From a virus, in the IMG/VR virus record IMGVR_UViG_3300020442_001944, positions 1 through 24,888 of that record: DNA of 24,888 bases; one strand, written 5' to 3'. Positions 2,810-20,471 of this stretch are shown piece after piece. The notes under the pieces were generated by a model. The model did not search any database and was not told the origin of the DNA. It saw nothing but the letters and a program-made list of their open reading frames with translations. Position 1 is the stretch's first letter, and the number at the start of each line of letters is the position of its first letter. The position numbers and the translations under genes are program-made.

Positions 2810-3319
2810 TTACAAGTATTTATATGCCACGGCATTTGGGCCAAATTCCACAGTTTCGTCTAACCATTTCCCTATCTTGTTAAATCCTACTGACTCATAC
2901 GTTGATAGAGCTTTTTTGCGTGGCATACTCCATATAACCTTACATTTCTCATTTTTTGCTTGTTGAAACGCACATCTCAACAAAAGTTGTCCATGACCAA
3001 AATGCCTATGTTCTGGATCGACCCATAAACCCCTAGATCGATAAACATTATCCTCTGTTCTAAATCCACTATTAACACCCACGATTTCTTTTTCTAAAAA
3101 TAAACCAAAGAATTTAGGCTCATATTTATCAAATATAGCACTATCTTTTTTTATCTCTGAGTTCCCCCAAGTAAGAAACAGCTGAGAGTTCCATACAAGA
3201 CTGCTCATGGGTTCAATTTTACTTATTCTTCCCGGCCACAATTTCTCGTTCCAAATGGGAAAAATTGTATCAAAATCAATTTCTTTTAGATAATATGTGG
3301 GAATGTCAATTAAAGGCAT
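2810..3319 (-). CDS. GNAT-family N-acetyltransferase
   Basis: A 169-residue protein when started at the ATG at 3319 (MPLIDIPTYYL), which has AGGA about 9 bases upstream. Upstream in-frame start codons would overlap the divergent gene. The acetyl-CoA-binding motif A is visible as GLWVDPEHRHFGHGQLLL (V-D-P then the R/Q-x-x-G-x-G type loop), followed by YESVGFNKIGKW, the usual motif B 'Y...GF...G' of GNATs. GNATs transfer an acetyl group from acetyl-CoA to an amine. In natural-product and sugar pathways they often acetylate amino sugars, but the substrate here is unknown. It stands apart from the main enzyme run, back to back with the sulfotransferase at 3333 (13 bases between start codons), and its 3' end carries the gp13 late promoter. 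Confidence 0.8.
   Translation of the reverse strand: MPLIDIPTYYLKEIDFDTIFPIWNEKLWPGRISKIEPMSSLVWNSQLFLTWGNSEIKKDSAIFDKYEPKFFGLFLEKEIVGVNSGFRTEDNVYRSRGLWVDPEHRHFGHGQLLLRCAFQQAKNEKCKVIWSMPRKKALSTYESVGFNKIGKWLDETVEFGPNAVAYKYL
2816..2824 (-). promoter_or_regulatory. T4-type late promoter for gp13-16
   Basis: On the minus strand the bases read TATAAATAC, an exact match to the T4 late promoter core (TATAAATA), which is recognised by the phage late sigma gp55 with the gp33/sliding-clamp coactivator. The gp13 ATG is 18 bases downstream, with AAAGGAAGAG in between as ribosome binding site, so the leader would be only about a dozen bases. The same bases encode the Y-K-Y that precedes the last Leu of the acetyltransferase. 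The match and spacing are directly visible; use by a phage late sigma is inferred. Confidence 0.72.
3265..3294 (+). promoter_or_regulatory. Possible sigma70-like promoter for the plus-strand trio
   Basis: TTGTAT (3265-3270) and GATAAT (3289-3294) are separated by 18 bases, and GATAAT matches the -10 consensus at five of six positions; the -35 is weak. A start near 3301 would give a leader of about 30 bases before the ATG at 3333. This lies inside the 5' part of the divergent acetyltransferase gene. It would fit host-polymerase (early) expression of the plus-strand genes. In AT-rich phage DNA such matches also occur by chance, so this is tentative. Confidence 0.28.
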
Positions 3320-3332
3320 TATATATAGTCCT

Positions 3333-3950
3333 ATGAGAGTTGGATTAGTCGCCACTTCAAGAAGTGGTTCAACATTATTTCGTAGTTATGCTTGTAACAT
3401 GTTAGGTCTACTTGACTCTGGCTCGTGGTTGAAGCACAACTCTTATTCAGACATTGAATCTCAGGATTTCGCAAAAGACACACATCTCCTTAAAGTTCTA
3501 CCTCACTATATATCAGACTCACCAGAAGAGGTTCATGAAGTCACCAAAAACTTTACGAGCATATGGTTGCATCGTGAGGATATTGTTGCACAGTTTCTAA
3601 GTCATGTTGCTCGACTTCGCACTGGTGTAAATCATGTGTATAAAGCAGAGGATAGGCCACAGATAGAGAATGTTAGTCTAGAAGCCACCAGAGAAGAGTT
3701 TGACAAATTCAAGGCCAAACTAGATTGCTTTTGGAACCTGTACAGAAATTATCACCAAGGCGAGCCACTCATATCCCTAGAATATTTTCTTGCAGACCCA
3801 TCAGAAAACCTTGCAAAACTTTCAAACTTCTTTAATATCAACTCAAATCAAGTTGTGAGGGTTCCTGTTCCTATAGAGTTAGGAATCAAGTATGATGACA
3901 AATTTAAAAACTACGATGAAATTGTAGAGTGGTTTCAAAACTATGAGTGA
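3333..3950 (+). CDS. Sulfotransferase-like protein 1
   Basis: A 205-residue protein from the ATG at 3333 (MRVGLVATSRSGSTLF). The N-terminal strand plus T-S-R-S-G-S-T (residues 8-14) is the 5'-phosphosulfate-binding loop of PAPS-dependent sulfotransferases. IWLHREDIVAQFLS (from residue 77) matches the 3'-phosphate-binding 'R...S' segment. The C-terminal pattern LISLEYFLADPSENLAKL is also usual in these enzymes. Such proteins move sulfate from PAPS to a hydroxyl or amine of a sugar, lipid or peptide. Upstream in-frame starts (3297, 3303) would overlap the divergent gene and precede the first beta strand, so 3333 is preferred although no good ribosome binding site is seen there. It overlaps the next gene by 8 bases. 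The length is short for the superfamily (about 250-350). Confidence 0.72.
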   Translation: MRVGLVATSRSGSTLFRSYACNMLGLLDSGSWLKHNSYSDIESQDFAKDTHLLKVLPHYISDSPEEVHEVTKNFTSIWLHREDIVAQFLSHVARLRTGVNHVYKAEDRPQIENVSLEATREEFDKFKAKLDCFWNLYRNYHQGEPLISLEYFLADPSENLAKLSNFFNINSNQVVRVPVPIELGIKYDDKFKNYDEIVEWFQNYE

Positions 3951-4698
3951 CTTTTGCATCGTGTGTACTCCACGATCAGGCAGTTACTATTTTTTCGAAT
4001 ACATGAGTAAAACATTTGATCTGGTGGAGGGCACTGAATGGTTCGGCCGAAATAAGAGCGTTGATCTAACAAAACCATTCGACCTTATTACAAAACGTGT
4101 TGACATTGATTGGACAAAAAACGAAGACCTTCTAACTGAACAAGATATTCGTAGAAGGCTTCGTCATCTAGAAAATTTTCCTCTGCCGTATTGTATCAAG
4201 ACTATGCCTTTACAACTTACAAATACACCTACACAATGCGAATGGCCTCCTATAAAAAGAGTCCAGTTTGCAACTGAAATATTGAGAGAGTTTGATTTGG
4301 TTTGGTTTCAACGAGAGGACAAGGTATCACATTTCTGTTTTGAGCTTACCGCAATGTTTTGCAGTCAACCAGACTATCCAAGGGACAGGGAATATTCTAC
4401 GTATGATCCGCCTTCTAGGAGAACGCCTCCACCCAACTCTTTCACGGCTACATACGAAGACTATAAAAAGTATATGTATAGAGAGGACATAACCAATCTT
4501 ATCATGCAAAATTTTGATGTTCCTGTGATAACATATGAAGAATTCGCAAAAGATCAGGATACTGCCATGATGAAAATACAAGAACACTACGGCATCAAAG
4601 CCAACTTTAAAGAAGAGAATAAAAAAGAGATTATCGAAAATCCAGACTATTCTAAGATATTTACAAATTATGATGAGATAGAAAAATGGTTTCTTTAG
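3943..4698 (+). CDS. Sulfotransferase-like protein 2
   Basis: A 251-residue protein starting MSDFCIVCTPRSGSYYFFEYM. T-P-R-S-G-S at residues 9-14 is the classic 5'-phosphosulfate loop (TPRSGS, as in the Stf0-type trehalose sulfotransferases). LVWFQREDKVSHFCFEL supplies the second PAPS-contacting segment. The C-terminus ends with a YDEIEKWFL-like tail that is shared with the preceding gene (YDEIVEWFQNYE), and the same 'QRED/HRED' motif occurs in both, so the two are probably paralogues from a tandem duplication. The start overlaps the end of the first sulfotransferase and the 3' end overlaps the kinase-like gene, which suggests one plus-strand operon. The acceptor substrate cannot be told from the sequence. 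Confidence 0.75.
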   Translation: MSDFCIVCTPRSGSYYFFEYMSKTFDLVEGTEWFGRNKSVDLTKPFDLITKRVDIDWTKNEDLLTEQDIRRRLRHLENFPLPYCIKTMPLQLTNTPTQCEWPPIKRVQFATEILREFDLVWFQREDKVSHFCFELTAMFCSQPDYPRDREYSTYDPPSRRTPPPNSFTATYEDYKKYMYREDITNLIMQNFDVPVITYEEFAKDQDTAMMKIQEHYGIKANFKEENKKEIIENPDYSKIFTNYDEIEKWFL

Positions 4699-5306
4699 AC
4701 TATATGATTAAGGGTGGGTGGATCGAAGGAGAGATGTTAGATACTCCTGGCCCCAAATTCATTGAGCAGTTAGCTGACCTGTTGGCAGAGTTGCACTCAT
4801 TGCCGCATGGGGAAGACTTTGCAACATATGATAATATTCCTGAATCGTCAATGTGGGATAACATTGACGATCTGGTTAAGTGGAGTGAAAAAGACACATT
4901 CACTGAAGATGCGTTATATGATTTTTATGCGGTAAAATCAAGATGTGATAAGCGTTTTTATATACACGGCGATTTATGGCGGCAAAATATTTTGGTAGAT
5001 AAAGAGGGAAATCTAACTGGTCTACGAGATTGGGAATCTTTATCCTACGGTGATCCACATTGGGATTTTCGTATGATCAGACGTTGGATAGGTTGGCAAG
5101 GCCTTGATAAATTACTATTTCTATACAATTCTAGTGTTGATTGGCATTGTGATCGTATAGTCATCGAAATTCTAGACAGAATTTCCATATGTCACTCTAT
5201 AAGGATTAGACAAGATCGTGGCTTGTTACGTCATGACGAACCTGACGCTATTGAGAAATTTGAGGATATGAAACGTGTTTGGAATAACAGACCAGAGGGT
5301 TATTGA
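4686..5306 (+). CDS. APH/choline-kinase-type phosphotransferase, C-lobe only
   Basis: A 206-residue protein with the catalytic core of the aminoglycoside phosphotransferase family. H94-G95-D96-L-W-R-Q-N101 is the catalytic loop (Asp96 base, Asn101 metal ligand). D115-W-E is the metal-binding aspartate, followed by the usual SYGDPHWDFRMI segment. The protein opens with YMIKGGWIEGEML, which corresponds to the hinge of complete family members, so the N-lobe with the ATP-phosphate loop and Lys is absent. An in-frame TGA at 4674-4676 rules out an upstream extension, and the start overlaps the preceding sulfotransferase. Either the N-lobe comes from another protein, the protein binds nucleotide unusually, or it is a remnant. 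Its stop overlaps the convergent minus-strand gene by 7 bases. Confidence 0.75.
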   Translation: MVSLDYMIKGGWIEGEMLDTPGPKFIEQLADLLAELHSLPHGEDFATYDNIPESSMWDNIDDLVKWSEKDTFTEDALYDFYAVKSRCDKRFYIHGDLWRQNILVDKEGNLTGLRDWESLSYGDPHWDFRMIRRWIGWQGLDKLLFLYNSSVDWHCDRIVIEILDRISICHSIRIRQDRGLLRHDEPDAIEKFEDMKRVWNNRPEGY

Positions 5307-5593
5307 GTTCCTGGCTTTACTCGACTAATACCATTATTGGTTTCATAGGTATTTCGAGCAGTTCTCATAGAAGCACAAACTGCATCATCATACCATTCCT
5401 GAGCTGAGGCTTCATCTTTCCATGTTACTACAACTTGTCTAACCGTAGCACTAACATCAGTACGAGAGATGGATTCTATTTTACCATTGTCAATATAATT
5501 TGTCTGTCGATATGCCTTAAACTCATCAGTAGGCACATACCAAGATATGCCAGCATCTTCTCTAGTTGTTCTTGACGTTGTTTGAAATGTCAT
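5300..5593 (-). CDS. Small protein of unknown function
   Basis: A 97-residue protein beginning MTFQTTSRTTREDAGISWYVP. I do not recognise a family with certainty. The central part, VRQVVVTWKDEASAQEWYDDAV, has the strand-helix pattern (VTWxDExxAxxWY) seen in small dimeric alpha-beta barrel proteins, but that is only a pattern impression. The start is supported by GGAG about 7 bases upstream of the ATG. It overlaps the end of the nucleotidyltransferase gene by 32 bases, so it is the last gene of the long minus-strand enzyme operon. Its stop codon overlaps the stop of the plus-strand kinase-like gene tail to tail. Confidence 0.65.
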   Translation of the reverse strand: MTFQTTSRTTREDAGISWYVPTDEFKAYRQTNYIDNGKIESISRTDVSATVRQVVVTWKDEASAQEWYDDAVCASMRTARNTYETNNGISRVKPGTQ

Positions 5594-5912
5594 TCCTTAG
5601 CTCCGTTGCGGATATATTTTCTATATCTTCTCCGAGATGTTCCTGTTCTATTTTATAACCAACATCTCTGCCGTATGTTATATTTATAATGTTAGGTACG
5701 TCCATTACCTCAAAATCCAAATGCTGAGTATAACCATGAACATGTAAATCACGAATCATGTCATTTCTATCGTGGTATTCTTCACCTGTGTCACGAACCA
5801 TTATGACCACTTGGCCAGTCTTTGCGTGAGCTCTTTTGAAAAGTTCTCTATGTCCACGGTGCCAAGGTTGAAATCTTCCAAGCATTTGAACAGTTGGTTT
5901 TCGTCTATCCAT
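5562..5912 (-). CDS. HIGH-superfamily nucleotidyltransferase (cytidylyl/adenylyltransferase-like)
   Basis: A 116-residue protein with the signature GRFQPWHRGH (residues 12-21), the T/HxGH nucleotide-binding motif of the nucleotidyltransferase superfamily that includes glycerol-3-phosphate cytidylyltransferase, NMN adenylyltransferase and phosphopantetheine adenylyltransferase. ISATELR (100-106) is the second signature (ISxTxxR), which contacts the triphosphate. It joins a nucleoside monophosphate to a phosphorylated substrate; the substrate is not determinable. The start at 5912 has AAGGA 8 bases upstream and an in-frame stop 18 bases before it, yet lies 112 bases inside the kinase gene. Starting at the next Met (5885) would still overlap by 85 bases. 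ATP sulfurylase shares this fold, but this protein is much shorter and lacks that family's usual QxRNP motif. Confidence 0.8.
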   Translation of the reverse strand: MDRRKPTVQMLGRFQPWHRGHRELFKRAHAKTGQVVIMVRDTGEEYHDRNDMIRDLHVHGYTQHLDFEVMDVPNIINITYGRDVGYKIEQEHLGEDIENISATELRNDISNNVKNN

Positions 5913-6262
5913 TTCGTAATCCTTAGATCATATATTTTAGTGGGTGGATGAAACAATTTATTTGTGTCCTCATATTTAGACTCCTTTATCGTATCCATCC
6001 AAATAAGAAGATCAGGCCCAAACAAATATCTCAGTCCCGGCAAAGGACACACAAAACCAGAAATACTAACAGGGTCCAACTCTGCGAGTTTTCTCATTCT
6101 TTCTGCCTGAATAATTCTACCACCCATAGACATATCGTAGTCATTTCCATAGGTAGTTCTAACGACATCTGCATCCCAGTATGGAATTTTGAGGTTCTTA
6201 GAAAGCCTCTCCCCCAGCCAACTTTTGCCCGAGCCAGGCAAACCCATAATTAAAATCTTCAT
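5801..6262 (-). CDS. APS-kinase-like P-loop kinase
   Basis: A 153-residue protein from the ATG at 6262 (MKILIMGLPGSGKSWLGE), which has GAGAGGG just upstream. The Walker A motif is GLPGSGKS (residues 7-14). WDADVVRTTYG (29-39) corresponds to the LDGDxxR segment of adenylylsulfate kinases, followed by RIIQAERMRKLAE. LLIWMDT is a Walker-B-like strand. APS kinase makes PAPS, the sulfate donor used by sulfotransferases, two of which lie nearby on the other strand. The family of small phage P-loop kinases is broad, so another small-molecule kinase is possible. The start shares ATGA with the stop of the upstream oxygenase. The C-terminal 37 codons overlap the nucleotidyltransferase in the -1 frame. 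Confidence 0.72.
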   Translation of the reverse strand: MKILIMGLPGSGKSWLGERLSKNLKIPYWDADVVRTTYGNDYDMSMGGRIIQAERMRKLAELDPVSISGFVCPLPGLRYLFGPDLLIWMDTIKESKYEDTNKLFHPPTKIYDLRITKWIDENQLFKCLEDFNLGTVDIENFSKELTQRLAKWS

Positions 6263-6786
6263 GTCCAAACCCTCTCTAGTACATGGTAAGATGTGTTGGT
6301 TAGCACTACTGGATCGTATCTGTCGGGCACACCTTTCCACCAAACCCACGATGCTGATACTCTGTTTCCTTCATATGGTTGCACTCTGTGGGTCAGTGTT
6401 GCATCAAAATAGACCAACCGATTAACCTTAGGCTCTATTGTTTCATTTATTGACCATTTTTCTCCACCTATCTCTAAATGACCACCACTATCTGGCTCTC
6501 GCATATAGTAGACAAATGTCAATTCTGGTAATTGATTCGTTGGATACTTATCATTATATGATAAGATGTCACTATGCCAGACAGGATCAATTGGTCGCAC
6601 GTTATACCATGCAGTTGCACCATGAGCCCGTTCTTTTAGTTTTGGTTTAGTTGACATGACCAAATCTATTAAAGGATTCTTTTTACCACTATATTCGTAG
6701 CCAATCCAGTGTACCTTTGCATACTCTATGTGGAGTTCATTTAGAGTTTGCATTTGATCATCTGTCAGGTAGTTATCTTCTATCAT
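6259..6786 (-). CDS. 2OG-Fe(II) oxygenase (prolyl-4-hydroxylase-like)
   Basis: A 175-residue protein with the iron triad and cosubstrate residue of the family: H71-S-D73 (VWHSDI), H133 (LTHRV) and R142 (EGNRVSASWVWW). The strand LTFVYYMREPDSGGHLEIG between them matches the jelly-roll pattern 'YLN...GG.L'. These soluble enzymes use 2-oxoglutarate and O2 to hydroxylate peptides or small molecules; many T4-like marine phages carry one. The start shares an ATGA-type overlap with the upstream asparagine-synthetase-like gene, and the end overlaps the P-loop kinase start. The substrate is unknown, but its place in an enzyme cluster with sugar-modifying genes suggests a pathway role rather than a stand-alone one. 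Confidence 0.85.
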   Translation of the reverse strand: MIEDNYLTDDQMQTLNELHIEYAKVHWIGYEYSGKKNPLIDLVMSTKPKLKERAHGATAWYNVRPIDPVWHSDILSYNDKYPTNQLPELTFVYYMREPDSGGHLEIGGEKWSINETIEPKVNRLVYFDATLTHRVQPYEGNRVSASWVWWKGVPDRYDPVVLTNTSYHVLERVWT

Positions 6787-7838
6787 ATCGTTAGTGCTTC
6801 TCTCTTCATGTAGTTCATAATATTATGTCTATTGACAACTGTACCATCCTCTGTTATAGCCAAAACATTAAAATTAGAAGATAACGGCACTGAGTGTTCA
6901 TATTGAACATCCGCCCTCATATTTGTCTTACCTTGACTATAAGCGTAGCCCTTATCAAATCTTGATATGAAGTTGCGAATGTCCATTTTAGTTTTTAAAA
7001 AACTCTCATCATTGTCCCACCAGTTAGTGTGCCACACTATCTTTTTTTCTATGTGCATATTCATTGCATACCTCAGTATGTCTGGACACAAAAAGAAAGG
7101 TTGATAATTATCAAGGTCTATTTTATCAACAGATATGTTTTGCAAGAATCTGAATGACTGCGTTAGATATGTGTGTCTTGTAATAGGCCACCATCGTTTA
7201 GCATTATATTCGTCCTCTTTATTTTTAGTATATGTCTGGTTGTTGGAAGCTCTGCCATGAGGGTATCCTGTGCTACCAAATAACCTATCGGCTTCACATC
7301 CTGTAGTGAACAGGCGCTTGTCTGGTCTTGTGATACCAAACATATTGCCATTAGAAAATTCGTAATGCAAATGTCCGACCACATTTTTATATCCATCTGG
7401 ATATATATTCACTGGAGTCTCATCTCCCATAATAATGCGTATCTGATCTTTTGGACACACCTCTGTTAAGGCATACATAATTGCTACACTGTCAATGCCT
7501 CCAGAATATAATAACTCTATCTCTTTACCTTTGTCTCGCATTTCGATGGCTCGGTTCATCATGATATCATCAAATGATGGTAAACCATCTGTATACTCAA
7601 ATTCTATTTTAGGAAAATTAAACGTGCTCATGTTGAAAACAAATTCATTTTCACCTAACAAATCATTAAGATACCAGTGTGGTGGTCTAGTATATTCACG
7701 CAAACTCACTTGTTCCGCATCCAAAAGAAACTCAAACTCATCTGAGTCTATTTCTGGTTGCCACATCTTATCAACATTTAAAAGGTAAGTTCTCCAGGCT
7801 TGTCTATAATCATCACTAACATAAACGAATTTTGTCAT
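6783..7838 (-). CDS. Asparagine-synthetase-like ATP-pyrophosphatase without glutaminase domain
   Basis: A 351-residue protein from the ATG at 7838 (MTKFVYVSDDYRQAW, with GGGAA upstream). S112-G-G-I-D-S117 is the PP-loop that binds ATP pyrophosphate, and TTGCEADRLFG resembles the GxGxDExFxG segment of asparagine synthetases. The usual N-terminal Ntn glutaminase domain with Cys1 is absent and is replaced by about 100 residues of unrecognised sequence. Enzymes of this fold adenylate a carboxylate and form an amide (asparagine synthetase, beta-lactam synthetase, lasso peptide cyclase). Without a glutaminase it would use free ammonia or another amine. It overlaps the glycosyltransferase before it by 23 bases and the oxygenase after it by 4. 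Confidence 0.75.
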   Translation of the reverse strand: MTKFVYVSDDYRQAWRTYLLNVDKMWQPEIDSDEFEFLLDAEQVSLREYTRPPHWYLNDLLGENEFVFNMSTFNFPKIEFEYTDGLPSFDDIMMNRAIEMRDKGKEIELLYSGGIDSVAIMYALTEVCPKDQIRIIMGDETPVNIYPDGYKNVVGHLHYEFSNGNMFGITRPDKRLFTTGCEADRLFGSTGYPHGRASNNQTYTKNKEDEYNAKRWWPITRHTYLTQSFRFLQNISVDKIDLDNYQPFFLCPDILRYAMNMHIEKKIVWHTNWWDNDESFLKTKMDIRNFISRFDKGYAYSQGKTNMRADVQYEHSVPLSSNFNVLAITEDGTVVNRHNIMNYMKREALTI

Positions 7839-8520
7839 AGTATTCCCATTGATGCGGTTTATTATTTCTGTGAGTAAAGTGTACGAATTTAATATCTGGG
7901 TGAAACTCTCCACCAAGAAATATGTAGTCGTTTCCTGTAATTTTCTGATACTTACGAGTTATCTGCACTTGCCACTTTGTCATACTTCTGCCCACAATAT
8001 CCTCATCGACAACCCAACGTGTAAACCATTCTTTAGGTAGAAGCTTCAACTCCAACCTCTCCTTCACCGAGTCTTCAACAAAATACTGTTCTCCGTTGAC
8101 GGGGCCTCTTGTAACGCCGTTTTCAATATAATGTTTTTGCCATCCCGATATATCCGACATAAACTTGTCATAGATATATTTGCAATCTTTTGGATAGTAT
8201 TTGAAAAACCCGCCATTGATAGAGTATCCTTCTTTCTCCGTATCTCTCCACCAGCCAGGCATCGCAAGAAACTGACCACGTTCAATAGGGTAGTCGAATA
8301 TTTCATTATAGTCGTTCATAAGTAAAATGTCAATGTCCATTACACACAAAGGTTCATCTTGATCTAACTGCATACCCCACATCTTATTCCACTGTAGAGT
8401 GACACGATCATCGTAAGGCTCGTGCATCCAATGAATTTTGTACTTAGATAACTTTTTGTTCAAGTAGTCCTCATACTCTGGGCCATATTTGTCACCTATT
8501 CGTATAGCGAGGATATCCAT
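7816..8520 (-). CDS. GT-A-like glycosyltransferase (second module)
   Basis: A 234-residue protein from the ATG at 8520 (MDILAIRIGDKYG, with GGGAG upstream). LCVMDIDILLMND contains a D62-x-D64 motif typical of metal-dependent GT-A glycosyltransferases. INGGFFKYYPKD gives the 'N-G-G-F-F' acceptor-side pattern seen in GT8-like and other nucleotide-diphosphosugar transferases. It shares IGDKYxxxY near the N-terminus, a DxD strand, and a GWW-(R/N)-D segment with the protein at 12814-13560, so the two are paralogues. It would transfer a sugar from a nucleotide sugar to an unknown acceptor. It overlaps its upstream neighbour by 25 bases and its downstream neighbour by 23. Confidence 0.72.
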   Translation of the reverse strand: MDILAIRIGDKYGPEYEDYLNKKLSKYKIHWMHEPYDDRVTLQWNKMWGMQLDQDEPLCVMDIDILLMNDYNEIFDYPIERGQFLAMPGWWRDTEKEGYSINGGFFKYYPKDCKYIYDKFMSDISGWQKHYIENGVTRGPVNGEQYFVEDSVKERLELKLLPKEWFTRWVVDEDIVGRSMTKWQVQITRKYQKITGNDYIFLGGEFHPDIKFVHFTHRNNKPHQWEYYDKIRLC

Positions 8521-9812
8521 TTTCGCTCCCACTGTTTTGTCGGTCTAGTTCCTTGAAACCAGCACCTGTCTGCATATGCTAAAATCTCATGTAGTCCCTC
8601 ATAGGCCCAGATTAGTTCGTCTAAAGTGTATCTCGCATGTGAGATGTGATAGCTGAATATGTTGCTGGTATCAAAGAAAACGTTTCGGTTTCGAACAAGG
8701 TTTATCAATCGTGTGGCATCAAACTCTATGAGATTCATCAACCAATACTGGACATCATATTCCTCGTTCATTTTGAGTTGTAAAGCTCGTAACTCTTCGT
8801 GTGTTCCCATAGATTTGCTTCTGATAGATGCCGGCAAGTTACCAGTGTTATCCACCATATTGATTCCTGTAGACTTTCTGTACATGTATATTTCTTCCAG
8901 CGACATATTCATGTCCACAATCGCCCGTTTTGTGTCAAGGTTTTCTTGTGTGTAATCGTACAGAACAACAGTCCCTTCGAAGTCAAGTTCGTTTGCGTAG
9001 ACCTCTGCACTATAACCAGCTGTTGGTGAAAACAACAAATCAAATTTACCTTCTGGAATTTTTTTAAGACCTTCTGTATTAAAGATATAAAATGCCTCTC
9101 CTATCCTTGTATTAAATCTAGAGAAGTAATATTCATCGCCGCTGAAGTCAGACCAATCCTGTTCTCTAAAATATGAAAACGATTTACGTTCTCTCTCTTG
9201 ATGCGTGAAGTTTTGTACTCTGCCCCAAGTCTCAATTTCTGCCCAGTGTGGTGTGTAGTCATCGTGATAATTGTTCTCTGAGCGTTCTATAACTTTGTAT
9301 CTACCGTAAACGTCTGGACACTTCAAAGTTTTCCACATATCCACATTTAGGTTTATGTGCTGGTAATGAAAGAATGAAAGCTTACCTGGCCGTGCCAAAA
9401 TATGGCCCTTTACTAGCTCGCCACTTTCTACAAAATCAAAAAAGTCAGTGACCGGCGTTACCTGATTTATAGAACCCCCTCTCCACTTAGCAGAAAGATC
9501 ATCAGTCCACCCCACCGTATCAAAAACCATTCCAACGGAAACAATCATTGCATGGGAGTGTTCACAGGTTTCTAGAAAATCGTTAACCTCGCTCCTGTAA
9601 CAGAATTGTACATCATGACCTGTACTTGCACCTGTCGGCCCACCAGAAACCATAAGAGTTGTTGTCTGACACTGTTTTTCTACCGAGAAGTCCCATTCGA
9701 TTTCGTCTGGATATACAACAAGAAAGAGAAGGTGTGAGTATTCTTTTCTGATCTTAACACCTTTCGTTTGCTCTTTCCAAACATTCACGAACTCATCAAA
9801 TTCTTTTACCAT
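8496..9812 (-). CDS. Two-part protein of unknown function, possibly methyltransferase-like at the C-terminus
   Basis: A 438-residue protein from the ATG at 9812 (MVKEFDEFVNVW), whose ATGG overlaps the TAA of the radical SAM gene. I do not recognise a named family. The N-terminal part holds aromatic-rich segments such as SHAMIVSVGMVFDTVGW and LVKGHILARPGKLSFFHYQHINL. The C-terminal part has Rossmann-like alternations (KFDLLFSPTAGYSAEVYANEL, then GTVVLYDYTQENLDTKRAI), which would fit a nucleotide- or SAM-binding fold, and later FFDTSNIFSYH. It sits between radical SAM enzyme and glycosyltransferase in the second module. This is the position where the first module has no counterpart, although a methyltransferase-like gene follows its glycosyltransferase. 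Confidence 0.55.
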   Translation of the reverse strand: MVKEFDEFVNVWKEQTKGVKIRKEYSHLLFLVVYPDEIEWDFSVEKQCQTTTLMVSGGPTGASTGHDVQFCYRSEVNDFLETCEHSHAMIVSVGMVFDTVGWTDDLSAKWRGGSINQVTPVTDFFDFVESGELVKGHILARPGKLSFFHYQHINLNVDMWKTLKCPDVYGRYKVIERSENNYHDDYTPHWAEIETWGRVQNFTHQERERKSFSYFREQDWSDFSGDEYYFSRFNTRIGEAFYIFNTEGLKKIPEGKFDLLFSPTAGYSAEVYANELDFEGTVVLYDYTQENLDTKRAIVDMNMSLEEIYMYRKSTGINMVDNTGNLPASIRSKSMGTHEELRALQLKMNEEYDVQYWLMNLIEFDATRLINLVRNRNVFFDTSNIFSYHISHARYTLDELIWAYEGLHEILAYADRCWFQGTRPTKQWERKWISSLYE

Positions 9813-10837: not shown

Positions 10838-11460
10838 TAGTAAAGTTCTTTATATTTTTCATAGAAAAAATCAGCTATAAACTCATGACCTCTATCGTTG
10901 GGATGAGAGTCATTTTTACCTACTCTATGAGTCTCTCGCCGAGGGTCTATATCATCTAATTTATCTGACATGTGATATCCACCAATTTCATGATACATTG
11001 GCCACCCAATAAATTTAGAATTGATGTAATCAAATTGTGGAGTATCTAAAATATCTTTCATAATTATTTCAGTTGGTTCAAAAGCTTGCATCTGTAGATA
11101 TGGTAATTTATAAAATTCACAATAAGTTTGAAAGGAGTGTATATATCTAACAGACTTCTTTAATAATTCTGGTTCATTACGAAAAGTGTTTGGATATAAT
11201 CTAAATGTTTTACCATAAAAATCCCACCTCTCAAACATAGACCAAAAACAAATTGCTAGGCCTATTTTGTTTTTATGTTGCAATAATGCATCAATCATCG
11301 TATTGTGAATATATTCATTACCAACTCCACCTCTGGCAACATTTACACATTCCATACCAAGTTTATCTGCAAGAATGTCAGGCCAAACATATGTTTGGCC
11401 AATTTTGCCCGATCCAGCAGTAAAACTATCCCCAGACACCACTATTTTTTTTCTACTCAT
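10837..11460 (-). CDS. SGNH-hydrolase-like protein (second module)
   Basis: A 207-residue protein from the ATG at 11460 (a TTG one codon earlier is also in frame). G-D-S12-F-T is the block I nucleophile motif, GGVGN is block II/III-like, and D184-S-H186-P-N-x-x-G-H is the block V Asp-His pair. SGNH proteins are esterases, lipases, or O-acetyl transfer/removal enzymes acting on carbohydrates. No signal peptide is present, so it acts inside the cell. It shares several segments with the protein at 14942-15733: GWP....IGGY, QxQ and D-(S/T)-H-P-N-x-x-G-H. The two are clear paralogues. The gene overlaps both neighbours by 1-8 bases. Confidence 0.8.
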   Translation of the reverse strand: MSRKKIVVSGDSFTAGSGKIGQTYVWPDILADKLGMECVNVARGGVGNEYIHNTMIDALLQHKNKIGLAICFWSMFERWDFYGKTFRLYPNTFRNEPELLKKSVRYIHSFQTYCEFYKLPYLQMQAFEPTEIIMKDILDTPQFDYINSKFIGWPMYHEIGGYHMSDKLDDIDPRRETHRVGKNDSHPNDRGHEFIADFFYEKYKELY

Positions 11461-12193
11461 CAATCTCTTTCAATACATCTTTACCAAACTGTTTAACAAG
11501 GGACTTTCTCATAAGCTCCTTACGTTCCTTGTTAAACCCACCATGCATGATAAAGTGAAATCTGTTCTCTGTAGACGCATTGTAAGCTTCATGTTCCACA
11601 CCGTTATCAAACCAGAAACCAGTGCAGTTCTCAAAGGGCAACTCTTCCTTTGTGTCTGCTCTTCTCAGGTAACAATTCTTCGGTTGATAGAATGCAAGGT
11701 TGATCGCACCAGCAATATTCCTTACACGGTTCTCTTTTATCCGTTGTTCACTGGCATCGTTGTGTGCAACTATTCTGCCGCCTGGCTTCAAAAGCATAAA
11801 TCGCAAACGCCGATAAGATTTGTGTGGAAAGTCTTCCAACCACCTCTTAGTCTCTGGTGCGACTTCTGCAATCTCTGTCCACCCCCACTTGACGTTCTCT
11901 TCAGTAAACCCATGTCCGGCAGGATTCTTGGTGTGATGCCAACCGAGACTAGTATCACTCGCATCCTCATGTACAAAACTATGAATGGCTGCAGAACACC
12001 AGCCATCACCGTCACCATATCGATGATCGACAAAGAAGCCTTCATCATAGACCGCCTGTGCTTCTTGAATACAAACCTCTGGTATCTCTATGTCAATCTT
12101 GAGATACCAAACGTCATGATCTCGGCACCACTCTACGATGTTTCCCGCTTTGTAGGGTTTGAGATATACGTTATTGTCAGCTCCGTGAATCAT
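11453..12193 (-). CDS. Aspartyl/asparaginyl beta-hydroxylase-like 2OG oxygenase
   Basis: A 246-residue protein with the features of this branch of 2OG-Fe(II) enzymes. LLKPGGRIVAHNDAS provides H144-x-D146, INLAFYQPKNCYLRR is the next jelly-roll strand, FWFDNGVEHEAYN provides H201, and R211 (NRFHFIMHG) would bind 2-oxoglutarate. The usual 'L.PG..I.PH.D...R.H..L...G.....FD...H...N.S...R' spacing is evident. Members hydroxylate peptides, lipid A or free amino acids and natural products. About 120 residues precede the catalytic core, with a Trp/His-rich stretch (GWHHTKNPAGHGF) of unknown role. It closes the first module, overlapping the methyltransferase-like gene by 17 bases and the next SGNH gene by 8. 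Confidence 0.82.
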   Translation of the reverse strand: MIHGADNNVYLKPYKAGNIVEWCRDHDVWYLKIDIEIPEVCIQEAQAVYDEGFFVDHRYGDGDGWCSAAIHSFVHEDASDTSLGWHHTKNPAGHGFTEENVKWGWTEIAEVAPETKRWLEDFPHKSYRRLRFMLLKPGGRIVAHNDASEQRIKENRVRNIAGAINLAFYQPKNCYLRRADTKEELPFENCTGFWFDNGVEHEAYNASTENRFHFIMHGGFNKERKELMRKSLVKQFGKDVLKEIDE

Positions 12194-12842
12194 ATCCTAT
12201 CGCCATAAATCTCTCCATACCATTATTTAGTTTGAGAGTCGCCGTATGCAGCGGGTCAATTCCTGCTTGTTCGGCCAACTCTTCTGGGCTGCTTACACAA
12301 TTTATGTGATCATCATATTGATCATCACTGGTCGATTGTAGAACGTAGAGTGGGTTAATATATTCTCTATTCAAGTCTATAAACCGTTTCATAGGAAACA
12401 TATGCTCACACGATGTGTTGATCACTGTATCAAATTGATAGTCAGGGTCTAGGTCTACGTTTGGATTTTCTTTTCTTTTGAGAGGTTTGTACATAACGTC
12501 TTTAATAGAGCACTGATATTTACCAACATCTTTGTGTCGTTTATTATATTTGTAACTTATATTTTTTACGTCCTCATCAATTTCAAAATTATGTACCAGT
12601 TCAGCTCCGTCAGTGATAAGAAGCTCTGCAAGATACTGACAAAACCAACCGCCAATAACAGCAACTTTTTTGACAGCGAAAAACTCTAATTCATTTATTA
12701 ACCAGAGTTTGCTCTGCATCTGTGAAGAGGTAGATGCATCCAGAACTCTACGAAATTGATATGGGTAGTCCTTCTGCACATCTGCCTGAGCCTGTTTCCA
12801 ATCGTTTGCAACCTCAGGCGTATATTTTATGTAACTTGTCAT
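12177..12842 (-). CDS. SAM-dependent methyltransferase-like protein
   Basis: A 221-residue protein from the ATG at 12842 (MTSYIKYTPEVAN, with AGGTG upstream). KKVAVIGGWFCQYLAELLI looks like motif I of a class I methyltransferase with a degenerate glycine loop (IGGWF). HNFEIDEDV supplies the acidic residue after strand 2. FDTVINTSCEHMF corresponds to strand 4 and its following loop. The assignment rests on this strand order and spacing, since no diagnostic catalytic motif is visible. It would methylate an O, N or C atom of an unknown substrate. The gene overlaps the preceding glycosyltransferase by 29 bases and the following hydroxylase by 17. Confidence 0.62.
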   Translation of the reverse strand: MTSYIKYTPEVANDWKQAQADVQKDYPYQFRRVLDASTSSQMQSKLWLINELEFFAVKKVAVIGGWFCQYLAELLITDGAELVHNFEIDEDVKNISYKYNKRHKDVGKYQCSIKDVMYKPLKRKENPNVDLDPDYQFDTVINTSCEHMFPMKRFIDLNREYINPLYVLQSTSDDQYDDHINCVSSPEELAEQAGIDPLHTATLKLNNGMERFMAIGYDSRS

Positions 12843-13560
12843 CGCTCTCACCTTCACCAAAACCGCTGTTATTATACAAACAAATCTTGTGATCTTCTCT
12901 TAACACATGTGCTTTCATGTCATCAGGAAACACATTCCCTTTGTACCATGAGTATACGTCTCCCTGTGGAAATCCTCTAAAGAATCCTTTATCTTCATTC
13001 CACACATTGTACCAATGATGGTTGAAATAATTATCTGCACTTGGATACGTGAAGAAAATGACTTCTGCATTTTTATCAATATGATTATACACCTTCTTCA
13101 GCTGACCACGGTCCCAACGGATCACTGAGGAGTTTAGGGGCGTGGACTTATGCTTAGAGAAATTACGTTTCACGGTATCGGGATCGTTCCACCATCCACG
13201 AACAATCCAAGGTTTGTCCATAGGTAGCTCAAAGAAATATTTGAGGTCTTGGTGTATGCGAACATCAAGGTCTAGAAGAAGAAACCGCTCACCATCGATC
13301 TTCCAAAAGTCCTTATCTGGTTCCTCGTCTAATTTGAAAACATAGTACTTCCGATAGGCCCAGAAGAAACCACGATTTTCGTGATAGTATGAATCCCAAG
13401 TTGTAGGAAGCTGTATGTCGTATGGTTGTGTGGGGTTATCTGTAAGACAATAGAAATTGAAAGGCACAGAGCAGTTCTGTTCACATTGTTCTTTTAGTTT
13501 CTCAACATATGTATGATCATACTTGTCACCCCACTTCACGCATAATATTGTATTAGTCAT
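12814..13560 (-). CDS. GT-A-like glycosyltransferase (first module)
   Basis: A 248-residue protein. FLLLDLDVRIHQDL holds a D97-x-D99 motif preceded by hydrophobic residues, as in GT-A nucleotide-sugar transferases. PWIVRGWWNDPDT and TPLNSSVIRWDRG resemble the acceptor side of GT8/GT32-like enzymes. CLTDNP near residue 38 is the common 'F.CLTD' strand of this group. It is related to the protein at 7816-8520 (shared GDKYxxxY, DxD and GWW). No transmembrane segment is present, so it is soluble. Its ATG overlaps the end of the radical SAM gene by 8 bases. Confidence 0.78.
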   Translation of the reverse strand: MTNTILCVKWGDKYDHTYVEKLKEQCEQNCSVPFNFYCLTDNPTQPYDIQLPTTWDSYYHENRGFFWAYRKYYVFKLDEEPDKDFWKIDGERFLLLDLDVRIHQDLKYFFELPMDKPWIVRGWWNDPDTVKRNFSKHKSTPLNSSVIRWDRGQLKKVYNHIDKNAEVIFFTYPSADNYFNHHWYNVWNEDKGFFRGFPQGDVYSWYKGNVFPDDMKAHVLREDHKICLYNNSGFGEGESDDKLHKIYA

Positions 13561-14791
13561 AATAAGGTTTCCACTCCGGCCATAAATCTAACAAACATGT
13601 GCCTCTATACTTATCTCTTGCCTTAACATCCTTCATCATGGACTTGTGTTTTTTCTCATCAAAAGGCATGTCTGTGAGGAAGTTAATTAATTTTTGATAG
13701 TCTTTCACGTACCTCAAGTTTGGATTGTCGTAATATTTTTCAACGTAGAACTCTCGCAGATCAAGAGGTATAGCTGTCACAGTGTATTTTTCCCATGACC
13801 CCCAAACCAAACTGCCCGTAGCAAACGGGTGAAAAACATCTGGATATTCTTTTATGAATTCTTCACATCCAGCAGCGACTTCCCACAAATACCCCACACT
13901 TAAACTATTGACAGTGGACACAAACAATACATTGACTTTATCCATCTCTGCAAATTTACGGACATTGTTCATAATATCGTCCCACTTCGAAGGATATCTT
14001 ATATAACTGTTTCGATCAGCCCAACCTTCGATTGATACGTTTATTAGTGTAGACCTAAATTTAGGTATGTAATCAAAAATGTCTTTACCATTGAACTTCG
14101 GTGTTAGAGTACCATTTGTGGTAATTCTCAAATCCATCTCTTCACTGTTAAAATTATTAACTGTCGTTTCTAGCAAGTCATAGTTATATTTGATCGCAAG
14201 TGTCTCTCCACCAGTGAGCTTGAGTTCAACTAGATTGTCCAACACCTTATTTTCAAATTCACTTATGTCTTCTTCGGCCACATCGTCATCTTTATACAAG
14301 GATTTGTTTCCAAGGATGGGAAAATTAGGATGACCTATTTCTTGATTTTCTCTGGCGATACTGGATGAATTGCCGGAGCCACACATGTGACATTTTAAGT
14401 TGCAGTAGTTACTTGGGGCCAACCACTCCATCGTTTTGACAAGTGGTTTCTCCATGTCAGTCTCTACATATTCTTCAAGTTCTGATTTTATCTCTGGCTT
14501 GTTATACTCAAGATATCCCAGATACGTTCTTCTGTGACTCTCAGGGGAATGTTTCTCTTGTTCTATGCAAACGCTACATGTCCTAGCAACTTCTTCGCCA
14601 GGTGTGGTTAGCATTTCTTGACGCAAATTCTTTAGTCTATCACTAGAAAAGTATTCGTCTATGGATGAGTATCGCCACTCGGCCTCTTGTTTGGTGACAC
14701 AGCAAGGTTTGATTGAACCAAAAACATTTTTGTATAAGTTCATAAATGGTTGTGGACAGAACCATTCATAGTCCTCTATTTTTTTAGTCAT
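13553..14791 (-). CDS. Radical SAM enzyme with N-terminal cysteine (twitch/SPASM-like) domain
   Basis: A 412-residue protein. The radical SAM motif lies in the middle: C130-N-L-K-C134-H-M-C137, followed by LKLTGGETLAI, the GGE motif that contacts SAM. Before it, about 120 residues carry C12, C30-C31 and C72-x-x-C75 in a WFCPQPF...IKPCC...CSVC arrangement, which resembles the half-SPASM ('twitch') cluster domain normally found after the radical SAM core. Domain order is therefore inverted compared with typical SPASM proteins, an arrangement I associate with phage and marine bacterial members. It would carry out radical chemistry on an unknown substrate. The start forms an ATGA overlap with the 59-residue gene before it. 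Confidence 0.83.
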   Translation of the reverse strand: MTKKIEDYEWFCPQPFMNLYKNVFGSIKPCCVTKQEAEWRYSSIDEYFSSDRLKNLRQEMLTTPGEEVARTCSVCIEQEKHSPESHRRTYLGYLEYNKPEIKSELEEYVETDMEKPLVKTMEWLAPSNYCNLKCHMCGSGNSSSIARENQEIGHPNFPILGNKSLYKDDDVAEEDISEFENKVLDNLVELKLTGGETLAIKYNYDLLETTVNNFNSEEMDLRITTNGTLTPKFNGKDIFDYIPKFRSTLINVSIEGWADRNSYIRYPSKWDDIMNNVRKFAEMDKVNVLFVSTVNSLSVGYLWEVAAGCEEFIKEYPDVFHPFATGSLVWGSWEKYTVTAIPLDLREFYVEKYYDNPNLRYVKDYQKLINFLTDMPFDEKKHKSMMKDVKARDKYRGTCLLDLWPEWKPYYD

Positions 14792-14967
14792 TCCATCATT
14801 TTTCGGTTCCAGCTTCTCTGAAGATGTTTGGCTTGATCTTCAGTGGTCAAGGTCTGGAACTGTTCATCCTCCACCTCATATATGAAACCAGATTCTTGAC
14901 TGACATTCTGTCGATGAAACCTAGACAGAAACAACCTACATCTAAGAATAAATTTTCGCATACGCAT
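14788..14967 (-). CDS. Small basic/acidic 59-residue protein of unknown function
   Basis: A 59-residue product beginning MRMRKFILRCRLFLSRFH and ending WNRKMME. GGAGG lies 9 bases before the ATG at 14967, the strongest ribosome binding site in this neighbourhood, and the stop overlaps the radical SAM start (ATGA). Both argue that the small frame is translated. The N-terminal third is strongly basic and hydrophobic and the rest is acidic and polar; there is one cysteine. I recognise no family. A short gene directly before a radical SAM enzyme could be a partner, a leader/precursor peptide or simply a coupling device, but no precursor core motif is visible. It overlaps the upstream SGNH gene by 26 bases. 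Confidence 0.6.
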   Translation of the reverse strand: MRMRKFILRCRLFLSRFHRQNVSQESGFIYEVEDEQFQTLTTEDQAKHLQRSWNRKMME

Positions 14968-15733
14968 CGTAAATAGCCTCCGCCATAATTTTGTGGCCCT
15001 TTGCGTTGGGGTGTGTATCTTCTTCACTAATTCTATGATCGTCTTGTAACAAATCGTCCATGCAGTAACCACCAATTCTTTTGTCTATTGGCCAACCTAC
15101 AAAACTATTTTCCATTGTATCTATGTATGGACTGTTTATAATGTGTTTACAAAATTCCTTGTAATAAATCTGTTCAATGTGTTCAAAATGGCCCATAAGA
15201 GGTTTACAGCCCTGTGTCTGAAGAACGGGAACTGTAATGACCGACTGTAAGGCGTGCATGTAGGAGAGTGTTTCTAGCGCTCCTGCCTTGATACTGTTGA
15301 TATGGGCATCACAATGCATCTTACTAACATTATATTTTAGGCCCTGTTTCTTAGGATTACGAGCCGGTGGTTTATAGAACTTATCATGCCAATCAGCGTC
15401 CTTGATTATTCTCTCTGGATGAAAACATCTCCAAGGATTTTGATTTAGATTTCTGTCTTTGACATCAAGGTATAGACTTACTCGTTGGTGTTCAGACCAC
15501 ATAGCAACAACAAGTCCAACATTTTTCTCTACCAGAAACCTCTCTGTAATTGTCCTGTATATTGCCTTGTTACCAAAGCCACACTCGCCTAGATTAATGA
15601 GCTTCATGTCCAACTTATCAGCCAGAAGCTCTCCCCACAAAGGAAACTCTTCAATTTTCTCTTGTCTCGCATAGTTGTCAGTGTAGGAGCATCCACCTAC
15701 AATCAACTTCTTTTTTTTAGAAAACAGGGACAT
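14942..15733 (-). CDS. SGNH-hydrolase-like protein (first module)
   Basis: A 263-residue protein. LIVGGCS16YTDN is block I with the serine nucleophile, the usual GDS being replaced by GCS. LGECGFGN carries the block II glycine and block III asparagine-like residues. D239-T-H241-P-N-A-K-G-H is the catalytic Asp-His block. Like its paralogue at 10837-11460 it has no signal peptide. It differs by an insertion of about 50 residues after VVAMWSEHQRV. These enzymes commonly add or remove acyl groups on sugars, which fits the neighbouring glycosyltransferase. The start overlaps the end of the carbamoyltransferase by 17 bases. Confidence 0.8.
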   Translation of the reverse strand: MSLFSKKKKLIVGGCSYTDNYARQEKIEEFPLWGELLADKLDMKLINLGECGFGNKAIYRTITERFLVEKNVGLVVAMWSEHQRVSLYLDVKDRNLNQNPWRCFHPERIIKDADWHDKFYKPPARNPKKQGLKYNVSKMHCDAHINSIKAGALETLSYMHALQSVITVPVLQTQGCKPLMGHFEHIEQIYYKEFCKHIINSPYIDTMENSFVGWPIDKRIGGYCMDDLLQDDHRISEEDTHPNAKGHKIMAEAIYDAYAKIYS

Positions 15734-17060
15734 TATATTTTCTTGACCACTCTTCTGCTTGTTCCCATGTATTGATCATGGGTTCTCCCTTGATATTAAG
15801 GGATGTATTAAGTAACATGGGACAACCTGTTCGATCATACCATTCTTCTAAAATTTCTCTGAGCACAGTACCACACCCCTGTTTGACTATCTGCACTCGA
15901 GCAGTGCCATCCACATGTGTAACCGACTTATAATCGTGTTTTGCCTTTGCGACAAACTGCATGTACTCATTCATCGGCCCGGAGAAATATTCATCAGCAT
16001 ATTCATCCAGAATAGCAGGAGCAAAAGGCCTAAATAACTGTCTGCGCTTAATCCTATTAACCGTATCCTTAATATCATATCGTGGATCGCCAAGGAGCGA
16101 ACGATTGCCAAGAGCTCTTGGGCCAAACTCTGCTCTTCCATTTGCTAGACCAACGATATGATTTTTCTCAAGTTCTTCCACAACTTCCTTTACATGTGTC
16201 CGCCTCATGATAGGATACCCAAGGAAAGGATTTGTCCACTGTAACTTTTTCTTTCGCACCAATGCAGCTGCACCAAGCGCACTGCCGGAATCGCCGGGTG
16301 AAGGCATGATCCAGATATTTTTACCTTTTATCTTAGAGTTCGCAGCACAGTTCAGCGCACACCCGCCCATGAGAACGAGGTTTTGGTGTGGACACATCTT
16401 TACGAGTTTCAGCAACTCTTGTTCATATAATGCTTGAATTGACGCAGCCAAATCTTCATTTTTAGCATCAGGAAGAATATTACCAATACCACGATGATTG
16501 TTCTCCCACAATCGCTCTTCTAATTGCTTAACATAAAGAGGTTGTCCAAACGCAGCCATACCCATTGTGATGTACTCATCCTCGTTGGGTTTGAGTCCTA
16601 TGCGTTGGGTAACTGCTGAATACAACAATCCTAGAGAGTAAGGATATTTCCAAGAGGTAATCTTTTTAAGCTTATCATCTTTTGCTTTCCATATGGAAAT
16701 AGTGTCCCACTCACCAATTGCATCAATGACCAATACATTACACTCATCAAACGTAGAAGTGTAGTAACCAGCAGCTGCGTGAGACTCATGATGACCAAAA
16801 CTTGTGTCGTAGTTAATTCTAGGCTTTTGCCAGGACTGACCGGCCCACCAACGTCTTAAATTTTTTTTGAAAGGTTTTTCGTAGTATGCAATAACGTCTG
16901 GTTGATATCTTTTTGATTTAGGCCACTGCTCTGAATGAACCCACTTATCACCTTTTATCCTACTATATCTCTCGGAGTGTGATGCGTAAATAATTTTACT
17001 GTCTTGAAGAAGAGCCAGCGCACCGTCATGAAACCCTTCTGATATACCTATGATATTCAT
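15717..17060 (-). CDS. Carbamoyltransferase, NodU/CmcH family
   Basis: A 447-residue protein. GISEGFHDGALALL opens the Kae1-like N-terminal domain. FGHHESHAAAGYY (H90, H91, H94) is the metal-binding motif. LVLMGGCALNCAANSKI and MPSPGDSGSALGAA are the ATP-binding signature segments. GRAEFGPRALGNRSLLGDPR and LNTSLNIKGEPM mark the C-terminal domain. The family first makes carbamoyl-adenylate from carbamoyl phosphate and ATP, then transfers the carbamoyl group to a hydroxyl, usually of a sugar or antibiotic. At 447 residues it is shorter than NodU or TobZ (about 550-570) but keeps all signatures, so it looks complete. Homologues are known in marine T4-like phages. AGGGTGAGG precedes the ATG. It is the first gene of the enzyme run. 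Confidence 0.92.
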   Translation of the reverse strand: MNIIGISEGFHDGALALLQDSKIIYASHSERYSRIKGDKWVHSEQWPKSKRYQPDVIAYYEKPFKKNLRRWWAGQSWQKPRINYDTSFGHHESHAAAGYYTSTFDECNVLVIDAIGEWDTISIWKAKDDKLKKITSWKYPYSLGLLYSAVTQRIGLKPNEDEYITMGMAAFGQPLYVKQLEERLWENNHRGIGNILPDAKNEDLAASIQALYEQELLKLVKMCPHQNLVLMGGCALNCAANSKIKGKNIWIMPSPGDSGSALGAAALVRKKKLQWTNPFLGYPIMRRTHVKEVVEELEKNHIVGLANGRAEFGPRALGNRSLLGDPRYDIKDTVNRIKRRQLFRPFAPAILDEYADEYFSGPMNEYMQFVAKAKHDYKSVTHVDGTARVQIVKQGCGTVLREILEEWYDRTGCPMLLNTSLNIKGEPMINTWEQAEEWSRKYNVPVF

Positions 17061-17594: not shown

Positions 17595-17611
17595 TTTAAT
17601 CTCCTGACTCT

Positions 17612-17619
17612 TATTTATG
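17612..17619 (-). promoter_or_regulatory. Probable T4-type late promoter before the 165-residue gene
   Basis: The minus strand reads CATAAATAAG, one mismatch from the T4 late core TATAAATA. The ATG at 17594 is 18 bases downstream of the motif, with AGGAG between them. The spacing to the start codon equals that at the gp13 promoter. The motif overlaps the stop codon of the preceding structural gene. It could begin the transcript that carries the carbamoyltransferase and the rest of the enzyme run. Confidence 0.5.
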
Positions 17620-20470: not shown

Positions 20471-20471
20471 T

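Follow-up and report, generated by a model that had tools for sequence, protein, structure and literature searches.

The host recognition cluster (HRC) of pelagimyophages is always found between VrlC and the neck gene gp14; it has a mean length of 44.6 kb and carries GT8 enzymes and radical S-adenosylmethionine (SAM) cassettes, with O-chain modification as the proposed function (PMC7029224). An aspartyl/asparaginyl β-hydroxylase is also core to all pelagimyophages, its position not being stated in that work (PMC7029224). In other viruses, capsid and tail proteins are glycosylated by mycobacteriophages Che8, Corndog, and Myrna (PMC12363180), and mimivirus L230 couples a hydroxylase to a glycosyltransferase, with viral collagen as the substrate (PMC9546862). 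Here, we analysed a 24,888-base stretch of viral DNA (the window), which is the IMG/VR record IMGVR_UViG_3300020442_001944, complete at this length and itself a fragment of a larger genome. An earlier note, made from the letters of the window, had described an enzyme run between fibre and neck genes at 2810 to 17060; this run is real, and the families of both flanks are confirmed. It comprises 19 enzyme genes between the fibre-side genes (P0028 to P0024) and gp13. The island is a variant of the HRC, and an enzyme island at such a site is not new in itself. Within it, five genes form a core in the order P0016-P0015-P0014-P0011-P0010. Our preferred reading, to which we assign a probability of about 0.42, is that this core and its exchangeable tailoring genes constitute a cytosolic hydroxylate-then-glycosylate pathway, whose acceptor would most likely be a fibre-side protein of the virion.

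All genes described below are on the minus strand unless stated otherwise. P0014 (11453 to 12193) is a predicted AspH-type Fe(II)/2-oxoglutarate (2OG) hydroxylase; it matches PF05118 (E = 2.8e-10) with a score of 40.7 bits against a gathering threshold of 22.6, and the HxD...H...R residues are kept, with H144-x-D146, H201, and R211 invariant in 17 sequences. P0016 (12814 to 13560) is a GT8-like putative glycosyltransferase with a DLD motif and a probable paralogue of P0010 (profile match to the P0010 family, probability 83). Neither P0016 nor P0010 exceeds the cut-off of PF01501 (GT8), to which the window proteins have no match, and 4 of the 22 P0016 relatives match it weakly (best E = 0.005). 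P0015 (12177 to 12860) appears methyltransferase-like from a weak PF01564 match (0.022) and the alignment of homologues. P0011 (8496 to 9812, start set by homologues; longest open reading frame [ORF], 462 amino acids, from 9884) matches no Pfam family and represents a novel one, and P0010 (7816 to 8520; longest ORF from 8532) is a candidate retaining glycosyltransferase of GT-A fold with a DID motif, recognized by Foldseek. Between P0014 and P0011 lie P0013 (10837 to 11463), a peripheral SGNH/GDSL hydrolase-like protein (PF00657, 9e-5, just below the Pfam cut-off), and P0012 (9806 to 10837), a putative radical SAM/SPASM enzyme often found at this place (PF04055, 5e-5; PF13186, 6e-4).

In order to compare the locus with its relatives, IMG/VR loci were collected with gp13, P0014, P0011, P0009, and P0025 and annotated with profiles built from the window proteins; the relatives are metagenome assemblies, many of them fragmentary, and counts refer to contigs, not to independent events. 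The core order P0016-P0015-P0014-(radical SAM or SGNH)-P0011-P0010 was unchanged in 51 distinct spans from uncultured contigs, and the synteny comparison of the fibre-gp13 interval that the earlier note had proposed thus gives a fixed core order among variable peripheral genes. Both P0014 and P0011 were present in 46 of these spans, P0011 alone in 2, P0014 alone in 0, and neither in 3 (Fisher p = 5e-4, which is not a clean probability because the contigs are related). The peripheral genes P0009, P0008, P0007/P0006, P0004 to P0002, and P0019 to P0017 have been gained or lost independently among relatives. Searching 50,697 phage records by tblastn gave no relatives of P0014, P0011, or P0016, and the more sensitive P0016 profile found a weak relative in Pelagibacter phage Mosig (6e-6). 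With the P0011 profile, 340 stretches of IMG/VR were found to encode relatives, and the core is common in uncultured marine phages; the combination of enzymes, called unusual beforehand, is therefore unusual against isolates but not against these phages.

The reading frames of the island genes are under purifying selection. Compared with the closest relative (L131), the ratio of nonsynonymous to synonymous changes (pN/pS) was 0.026 for P0014, 0.027 for P0012, 0.118 for gp13, and 0.42 for P0009. P0014 is the most conserved gene of the cassette, and among 96 loci, counted without deduplication, it was more conserved than gp13 in 82; this hydroxylase of a hypervariable island is constrained more tightly than the neck protein.

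The AlphaFold model of P0011 has a predicted local distance difference test (pLDDT) value of 86.6. Foldseek comparison with solved structures gave weak matches, none at E ≤ 0.001, which are split between GT-A folds (GlyE, glycogenin) and an NNMT-type methyltransferase in correspondence with the two halves of the protein, weakly suggesting a GT-A-like N-terminal half and a methyltransferase-like C-terminal half. In a viral structure library, P0011 matched uncharacterised phage proteins (E = 2e-21) and glycosyltransferases. P0010, whose model has a mean pLDDT of just 66, matched retaining enzymes of GT6/GT8 (GTA/GTB, GlyE, LgtC) with probabilities of 0.99 to 1.00 (E = 1.8e-4); a lower match of this low-confidence model was the human collagen hydroxylase-glycosyltransferase LH3. 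The fold match together with the invariant DID motif is consistent with a GT-A enzyme, within the low confidence of the model. PDB sequence searches with the P0011, P0016, P0014, and P0002 profiles yielded nothing useful.

The P0014-P0011 pair is also found outside phages. Scanning 84,980 genomes of bacteria and archaea with the P0011 profile yielded five loci, titled Bacteriovoracaceae, Halobacteriovoraceae, and Bdellovibrionia; this cellular form is uncommon, being present in 4 of the 129 genomes searched from the class. In L149, L150, L151, and L153, one chain carries an AspH domain on the N-terminal side of a P0011-like domain, the two are encoded by adjacent genes in L152, and L162 has the fusion in reversed domain order. 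The two opposite fusion orders suggest independent joining events, which is strong evidence from sequence that P0014 and P0011 share a function, and we regard the two as probably tied functionally. The L162/L163 fusion is flanked by four radical SAM genes, of which two resemble P0017 and two P0012, and radical SAM genes are also located beside the L152 pair. L151 and L152 carry, in addition, NodU-type carbamoyltransferases, glutamine amidotransferase/PP-loop proteins, and GT2 enzymes, and L152 has a YdjC deacetylase. As a side observation, in L163 (5374 to 12017) the four radical SAM genes around the P0011-AspH fusion lie downstream of a large subtilisin-like protease, an arrangement resembling a minimal cellular version. 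The proposal of one coordinated pathway is supported for the core by its fixed order, the joint occurrence of P0014 and P0011, and the bacterial fusions, and it is not supported for the whole run, whose peripheral genes come and go independently.

The island has a strict border on its fibre side. P0025 (17615 to 18562), a fibre-side protein and candidate acceptor, is found next to the cassette in relatives and has a counterpart of 54% identity in Pelagibacter phage Mosig; P0024 (17097 to 17594), a conserved fibre-side protein by its position in relatives, usually comes right after P0025. To the left, 14 spans had a flank longer than 7 kb, and P0024/P0025 were there in each of them; to the right, gp13 was present in 16 of the 18 spans whose flank exceeded 7 kb. 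The gp13-fetched loci with at least 5 kb upstream (n = 18) contained the core in nine cases and no core in nine; P0024/P0025 occurred in 0 of the 9 core-free loci, several of which show VrlC-like P0028 and P0027 upstream. Of P0025-fetched loci with at least 5 kb downstream, 50/56 carry members of the glycosyltransferase/methyltransferase set (hand count, opposite-strand genes included), and approximately 14 of these 50 have it on the other strand, in most cases together with a carbamoyltransferase; this is the Mosig type, which lacks P0014 and P0011. The fibre-side pair travels with the glycosyltransferase/methyltransferase set, and P0014 and P0011 form a module belonging to one type of cassette.

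In the proposed pathway, P0014 would hydroxylate the acceptor, after which the GT-A enzymes P0010 and P0016 and the glycosyltransferase-like half of P0011 would add sugars, and P0015 and the methyltransferase-like half of P0011 would methylate. The radical SAM enzymes, the carbamoyl-, sulfo-, and acetyltransferases, and the SGNH esterases may vary the product between phages by optional capping and esterase editing. P0007/P0006 would perhaps supply 3'-phosphoadenosine 5'-phosphosulfate to the sulfotransferases, a tentative step, with P0006 matching generic nucleotidyltransferases. The acceptor would most likely be P0025 or one of its neighbours, made at the same time, and the result would be a changeable decorated fibre. 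The gene set, its fixed order, the selection on it, and the P0014-P0011 coupling are direct observations, and from them we infer the chemistry and the step order; the identity of the acceptor is the weakest part, a fibre protein being favoured over a host envelope glycan. All 19 island proteins appear soluble, as had been stated before: the highest Kyte-Doolittle 19-residue mean is 1.28, below the 1.6 that was used as the criterion. With this solubility, and with genes for a flippase, polymerase, lipid-linked transferase, or ligase missing from the island, the acceptor is expected to be cytosolic. Decoration of fibres, one of the two kinds of product suggested in the earlier note (the other being a small molecule), is favoured on indirect grounds: the location, the strict border with P0025/P0024, and the lack of membrane machinery. 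A more far-reaching version, in which AspH and a bifunctional glycosyltransferase/methyltransferase family write interchangeable carbamoylated and sulfated glycans on fibres, set receptor binding, and are shared by descent with predatory Bacteriovoracales-type bacteria as a phage protein hydroxylation-glycosylation system, is rather unlikely.

Several findings weigh against fibre decoration by this core. Two of the 56 P0025-fetched loci, L242 and L243, are cassette-free, with the order P0025-P0024-P0001-gp13, and P0025 and P0024 are also found beside Mosig-type cassettes that lack P0014 and P0011; P0025 is thereby ruled out as an obligate substrate or partner of the hydroxylase. Outside the 51 spans, one lineage (L112-L114) has P0014 next to gp13 and no other core gene. 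No fibres are located near the bacterial relatives, and two of these relatives are beside surface-glycan-type genes (GT2, YdjC). The glycosyltransferase and methyltransferase assignments of P0011 are weak, fold-level calls, and late-promoter motifs (TATAAATA and VTAAATA) occur in the island at chance level. Separately, the lone P0014 of L114 was observed to follow carbamoyltransferase and SGNH genes.

Instead of a virion protein, the target of the enzymes may be a glycan on the surface of the infected cell (a SAR11- or OM43-type host), either the O-chain or a different one, which would be altered, for example, against superinfection. The GT8 enzymes of the HRC were assigned to O-chain modification by Zaragoza-Solas et al. 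2020 (PMC7029224), and the relatives in L151 and L152 adjoin carbamoyltransferase, GT2, and (in L152) YdjC genes, which is a surface-glycan setting. Being the one published for the HRC, and given the surface-glycan-type neighbours of two bacterial relatives, the host-glycan reading comes close behind the fibre reading, although taken by itself it is somewhat unlikely. Sulfo, carbamoyl, and acetyl groups are common on surface polysaccharides, as are SGNH esterases, and LpxO, a lipid A hydroxylase, presumably shares the Pfam family of P0014; both points count for modification of the host. However, the 19 genes include no membrane protein, flippase, polymerase, initiating or lipid-linked transferase, membrane acetylase, or ligase, with 0 of 19 proteins having a segment of transmembrane strength; the island genes stand within the structural operon; and the bacterial example L163 combines radical SAM genes with the fusion and has no glycan genes.

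The combination of radical SAM/SPASM enzymes, a hydroxylase, a PP-loop amide former, and a carbamoyltransferase would also suit a core that makes a modified peptide or small molecule directed at the host or at competitors, in which case the glycosyltransferases would be tailoring enzymes. The four radical SAM genes that flank the AspH-P0011 fusion in L163 are reminiscent of peptide-modifying clusters, and a 59-amino-acid ORF precedes P0017 and recurs in relatives. This ORF is, however, conserved over its full length and present with or without a following radical SAM gene, unlike a leader/core precursor, and no transporter, leader peptidase, or known precursor family was found; Pfam and PHROG matches likewise include no recognised precursor, protease, or exporter of a cluster for ribosomally synthesized and post-translationally modified peptides. 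Such a soluble product is unlikely. Less probable still is that a recombination hotspot beside the fibre genes gathers unrelated enzymes without a shared pathway. The island type is known to be hypervariable (HTVC008M has four 2OG oxygenases; Mosig has a heme oxygenase, nitroreductases, and an epimerase; Melnitz has fibres only), and the peripheral genes vary freely, but the order of the core does not change even between widely diverged relatives, P0014 and P0011 occur together and, elsewhere, as fusions, and the core genes are under strong selection. DNA hypermodification was set aside, because the run has no hydroxymethyl-pyrimidine or base-modifying gene and its location is structural.

On longest-ORF starts, 17 of the 18 junctions within the island overlap, in agreement with the earlier description of mostly overlapping genes. 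Homologues indicate later starts for P0001, P0002, P0007, P0009, P0010, P0011, and P0015, with which most overlaps become shorter and several shrink to a few bases or vanish, that of the divergent P0001/P0002 pair being among those lost; the tight packing of the genes stands after this correction. P0002 to P0004 (two sulfotransferase-like proteins and one APH-type kinase; 3297 to 5306) are on the plus strand, and the GC skew flips there. The families that had been listed previously are borne out, several of them weakly by sequence, but the SGNH hydrolases P0013 and P0018 had been omitted, and P0011 is without a family. We grade the family calls as confident for the carbamoyltransferase, the GNAT enzyme, the APH-type kinase, the two 2OG oxygenases, and one radical SAM enzyme; as moderate for the second radical SAM enzyme with SPASM, the nucleotidyltransferase, and the two SGNH hydrolases; and as motif-intact but weak for the two sulfotransferases, the methyltransferase, the two glycosyltransferases, and the PP-loop enzyme.

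At the fibre-side end of the island, peripheral P0019 (15717 to 17060) is a predicted NodU-type O-carbamoyltransferase in which both NodU/TobZ-type Pfam domains exceed the cut-off (PF16861, 6.9e-48; PF02543, 1e-40; PHROG 1601, 2e-87). It is followed by P0018 (14942 to 15733), peripheral and SGNH/GDSL hydrolase-like by matches below the cut-offs (PF19547, 4.5e-6; PF00657, 0.007), and by the small conserved ORF of 59 amino acids (14788 to 14967), whose frame is kept in about 20 relatives. This ORF has a basic amphipathic start (MRMRKFILRCRLFLSRF) and an FIYE(x)DD motif and, in relatives, is usually located after an SGNH gene and before P0016 or P0017. P0017 (13553 to 14791) is a peripheral but recurrent radical SAM enzyme (PF04055, 3.7e-10). 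Beyond the core, peripheral P0009 (6783 to 7838; longest ORF from 7916) is PP-loop ATP-pyrophosphatase/amide-forming-like from the PP-loop YSGGIDS alone, in which SGG-DS is invariant; its family search gave nothing significant, and a PDB sequence search gave one insignificant match. P0008 (6259 to 6786) is a peripheral 2OG-Fe(II) oxygenase (PF13640, 1.5e-9). P0007 (5801 to 6262; longest ORF from 6349) is a putative P-loop kinase whose nearest enzyme relatives are adenosine 5'-phosphosulfate (APS) kinases (profile match to the APS kinase 2yvu, 3.3e-6); its top matches, 9fqr and 9d2f, were set aside as P-loop matches in long, unrelated-looking chains. P0006 (5562 to 5912) is a HIGH-type nucleotidyltransferase (PF01467, 7.6e-6; ATP-sulfurylase, 4e-4; otherwise generic nucleotidyltransferases). 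The two genes overlap by 112 nucleotides, which recurs in several relatives, and together they span PHROG 10255, as if one kinase-nucleotidyltransferase had been split into two overlapping genes.

P0005 (5300 to 5593) is a small protein with a weak match to phrog_21546 (0.0012). On the plus strand, P0004 (4686 to 5306) is an APH-type phosphotransferase (PF01636, 1.2e-13), P0003 (3943 to 4698) is sulfotransferase-like (PF00685, 0.008; TPRSGS P-loop conserved), and P0002 (3333 to 3950; longest ORF from 3297) is a Stf0-like putative sulfotransferase (PF09037, 0.021; TSRSGST P-loop and W-L-x-R-x-D motif). P0002 and P0003 are adjoining distant paralogues of approximately 22% identity on the strand opposite to the structural genes. 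P0001 (2810 to 3319; longest ORF from 3355), a GNAT acetyltransferase (PF00583, 3.6e-11), commonly adjoins gp13, the neck protein/head-tail adaptor at the right border (1977 to 2798; PHROG 211, 1.5e-42), which forms with gp14 (PF11649, 4.8e-25) and gp15 (PF16724, 2.5e-83) a set of T4-like structural genes at 212 to 2798. The opposite flank (17097 to 24839) ends with P0028 (20472 to 24839) at the left border, a VrlC-like large baseplate/structural protein of 1455 amino acids (PHROG 358, score 1208; PF16075, 1.6e-20) whose profile matches the annotated VrlC of Mosig and HTVC008M. Between P0028 and the fibre-side pair are P0027 (20231 to 20590), a virion structural protein (PHROG 473, 4e-21) with a true start that is probably internal, and P0026 (18562 to 20241), which is tail-fibre-like (PHROG 8745 tail fibre, 4.8e-13). 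The nearest isolates by gp13 identity are Methylophilales phage Melnitz (OM43; 65%) and the Pelagibacter phages HTVC008M (SAR11; 63%) and Mosig (59%), and the phage records contain no near DNA match to the window.

In some very abundant ocean phages, no other variable island is as large as the HRC, whose enzymes have been loosely interpreted as O-antigen genes. A hydroxylase conserved beyond the neck protein suggests that one specific reaction is retained while the decorations change, and, if its product is on the virion, host range could be varied chemically as well as through the fibre sequence. P0011 is a new protein family, with no match in Pfam or, by tblastn, in the 50,697 phage records, a confident model, and cellular fusions. 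We found no paper describing such a core in the literature, and what seems to be new is the fixed core with the pair that borders it, how tightly P0014 is conserved, the family of P0011, and the fusions in cellular genomes.

Like the HRC, the island extends from VrlC to the neck genes and contains fibre genes, glycosyltransferases, and radical SAM enzymes that vary between phages, whereas in PMC7029224 no enzyme core of conserved order is described and none of the HRC genes is called a hydroxylase. The P0014 profile does not match the Asp_Arg_Hydrox genes of the isolate Mosig, and P0014 is therefore probably a different AspH from the pelagimyophage-core hydroxylase. Mosig (EXVC030M, MT647606) resembles the window in having P0025/P0024-like genes followed by an island with P0010-, P0015-, P0016-, and P0019-like proteins and radical SAM enzymes, but its enzymes are on the opposite strand, and an epimerase, an ArnB-type aminotransferase, and nitroreductases are found in place of P0014 and P0011. 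The fusion operons of Bacteriovoracales/Bdellovibrionia are chromosomal and 23 to 31% identical, with no phage structural genes seen near and no P0010 or P0016 relatives detected; they share with the window the joined or adjacent AspH and P0011-type domains, in several cases the P0012/P0017-type radical SAM genes, and, in L151 and L152, NodU. With mimivirus L230 and collagen LH3, the proposed pathway shares the logic of hydroxylating a residue and then glycosylating it, with a viral fibre-type substrate, and the predicted GT-A fold of P0010 resembles that of LH3; these systems use another hydroxylase family, and the likeness is one of working, not of membership.

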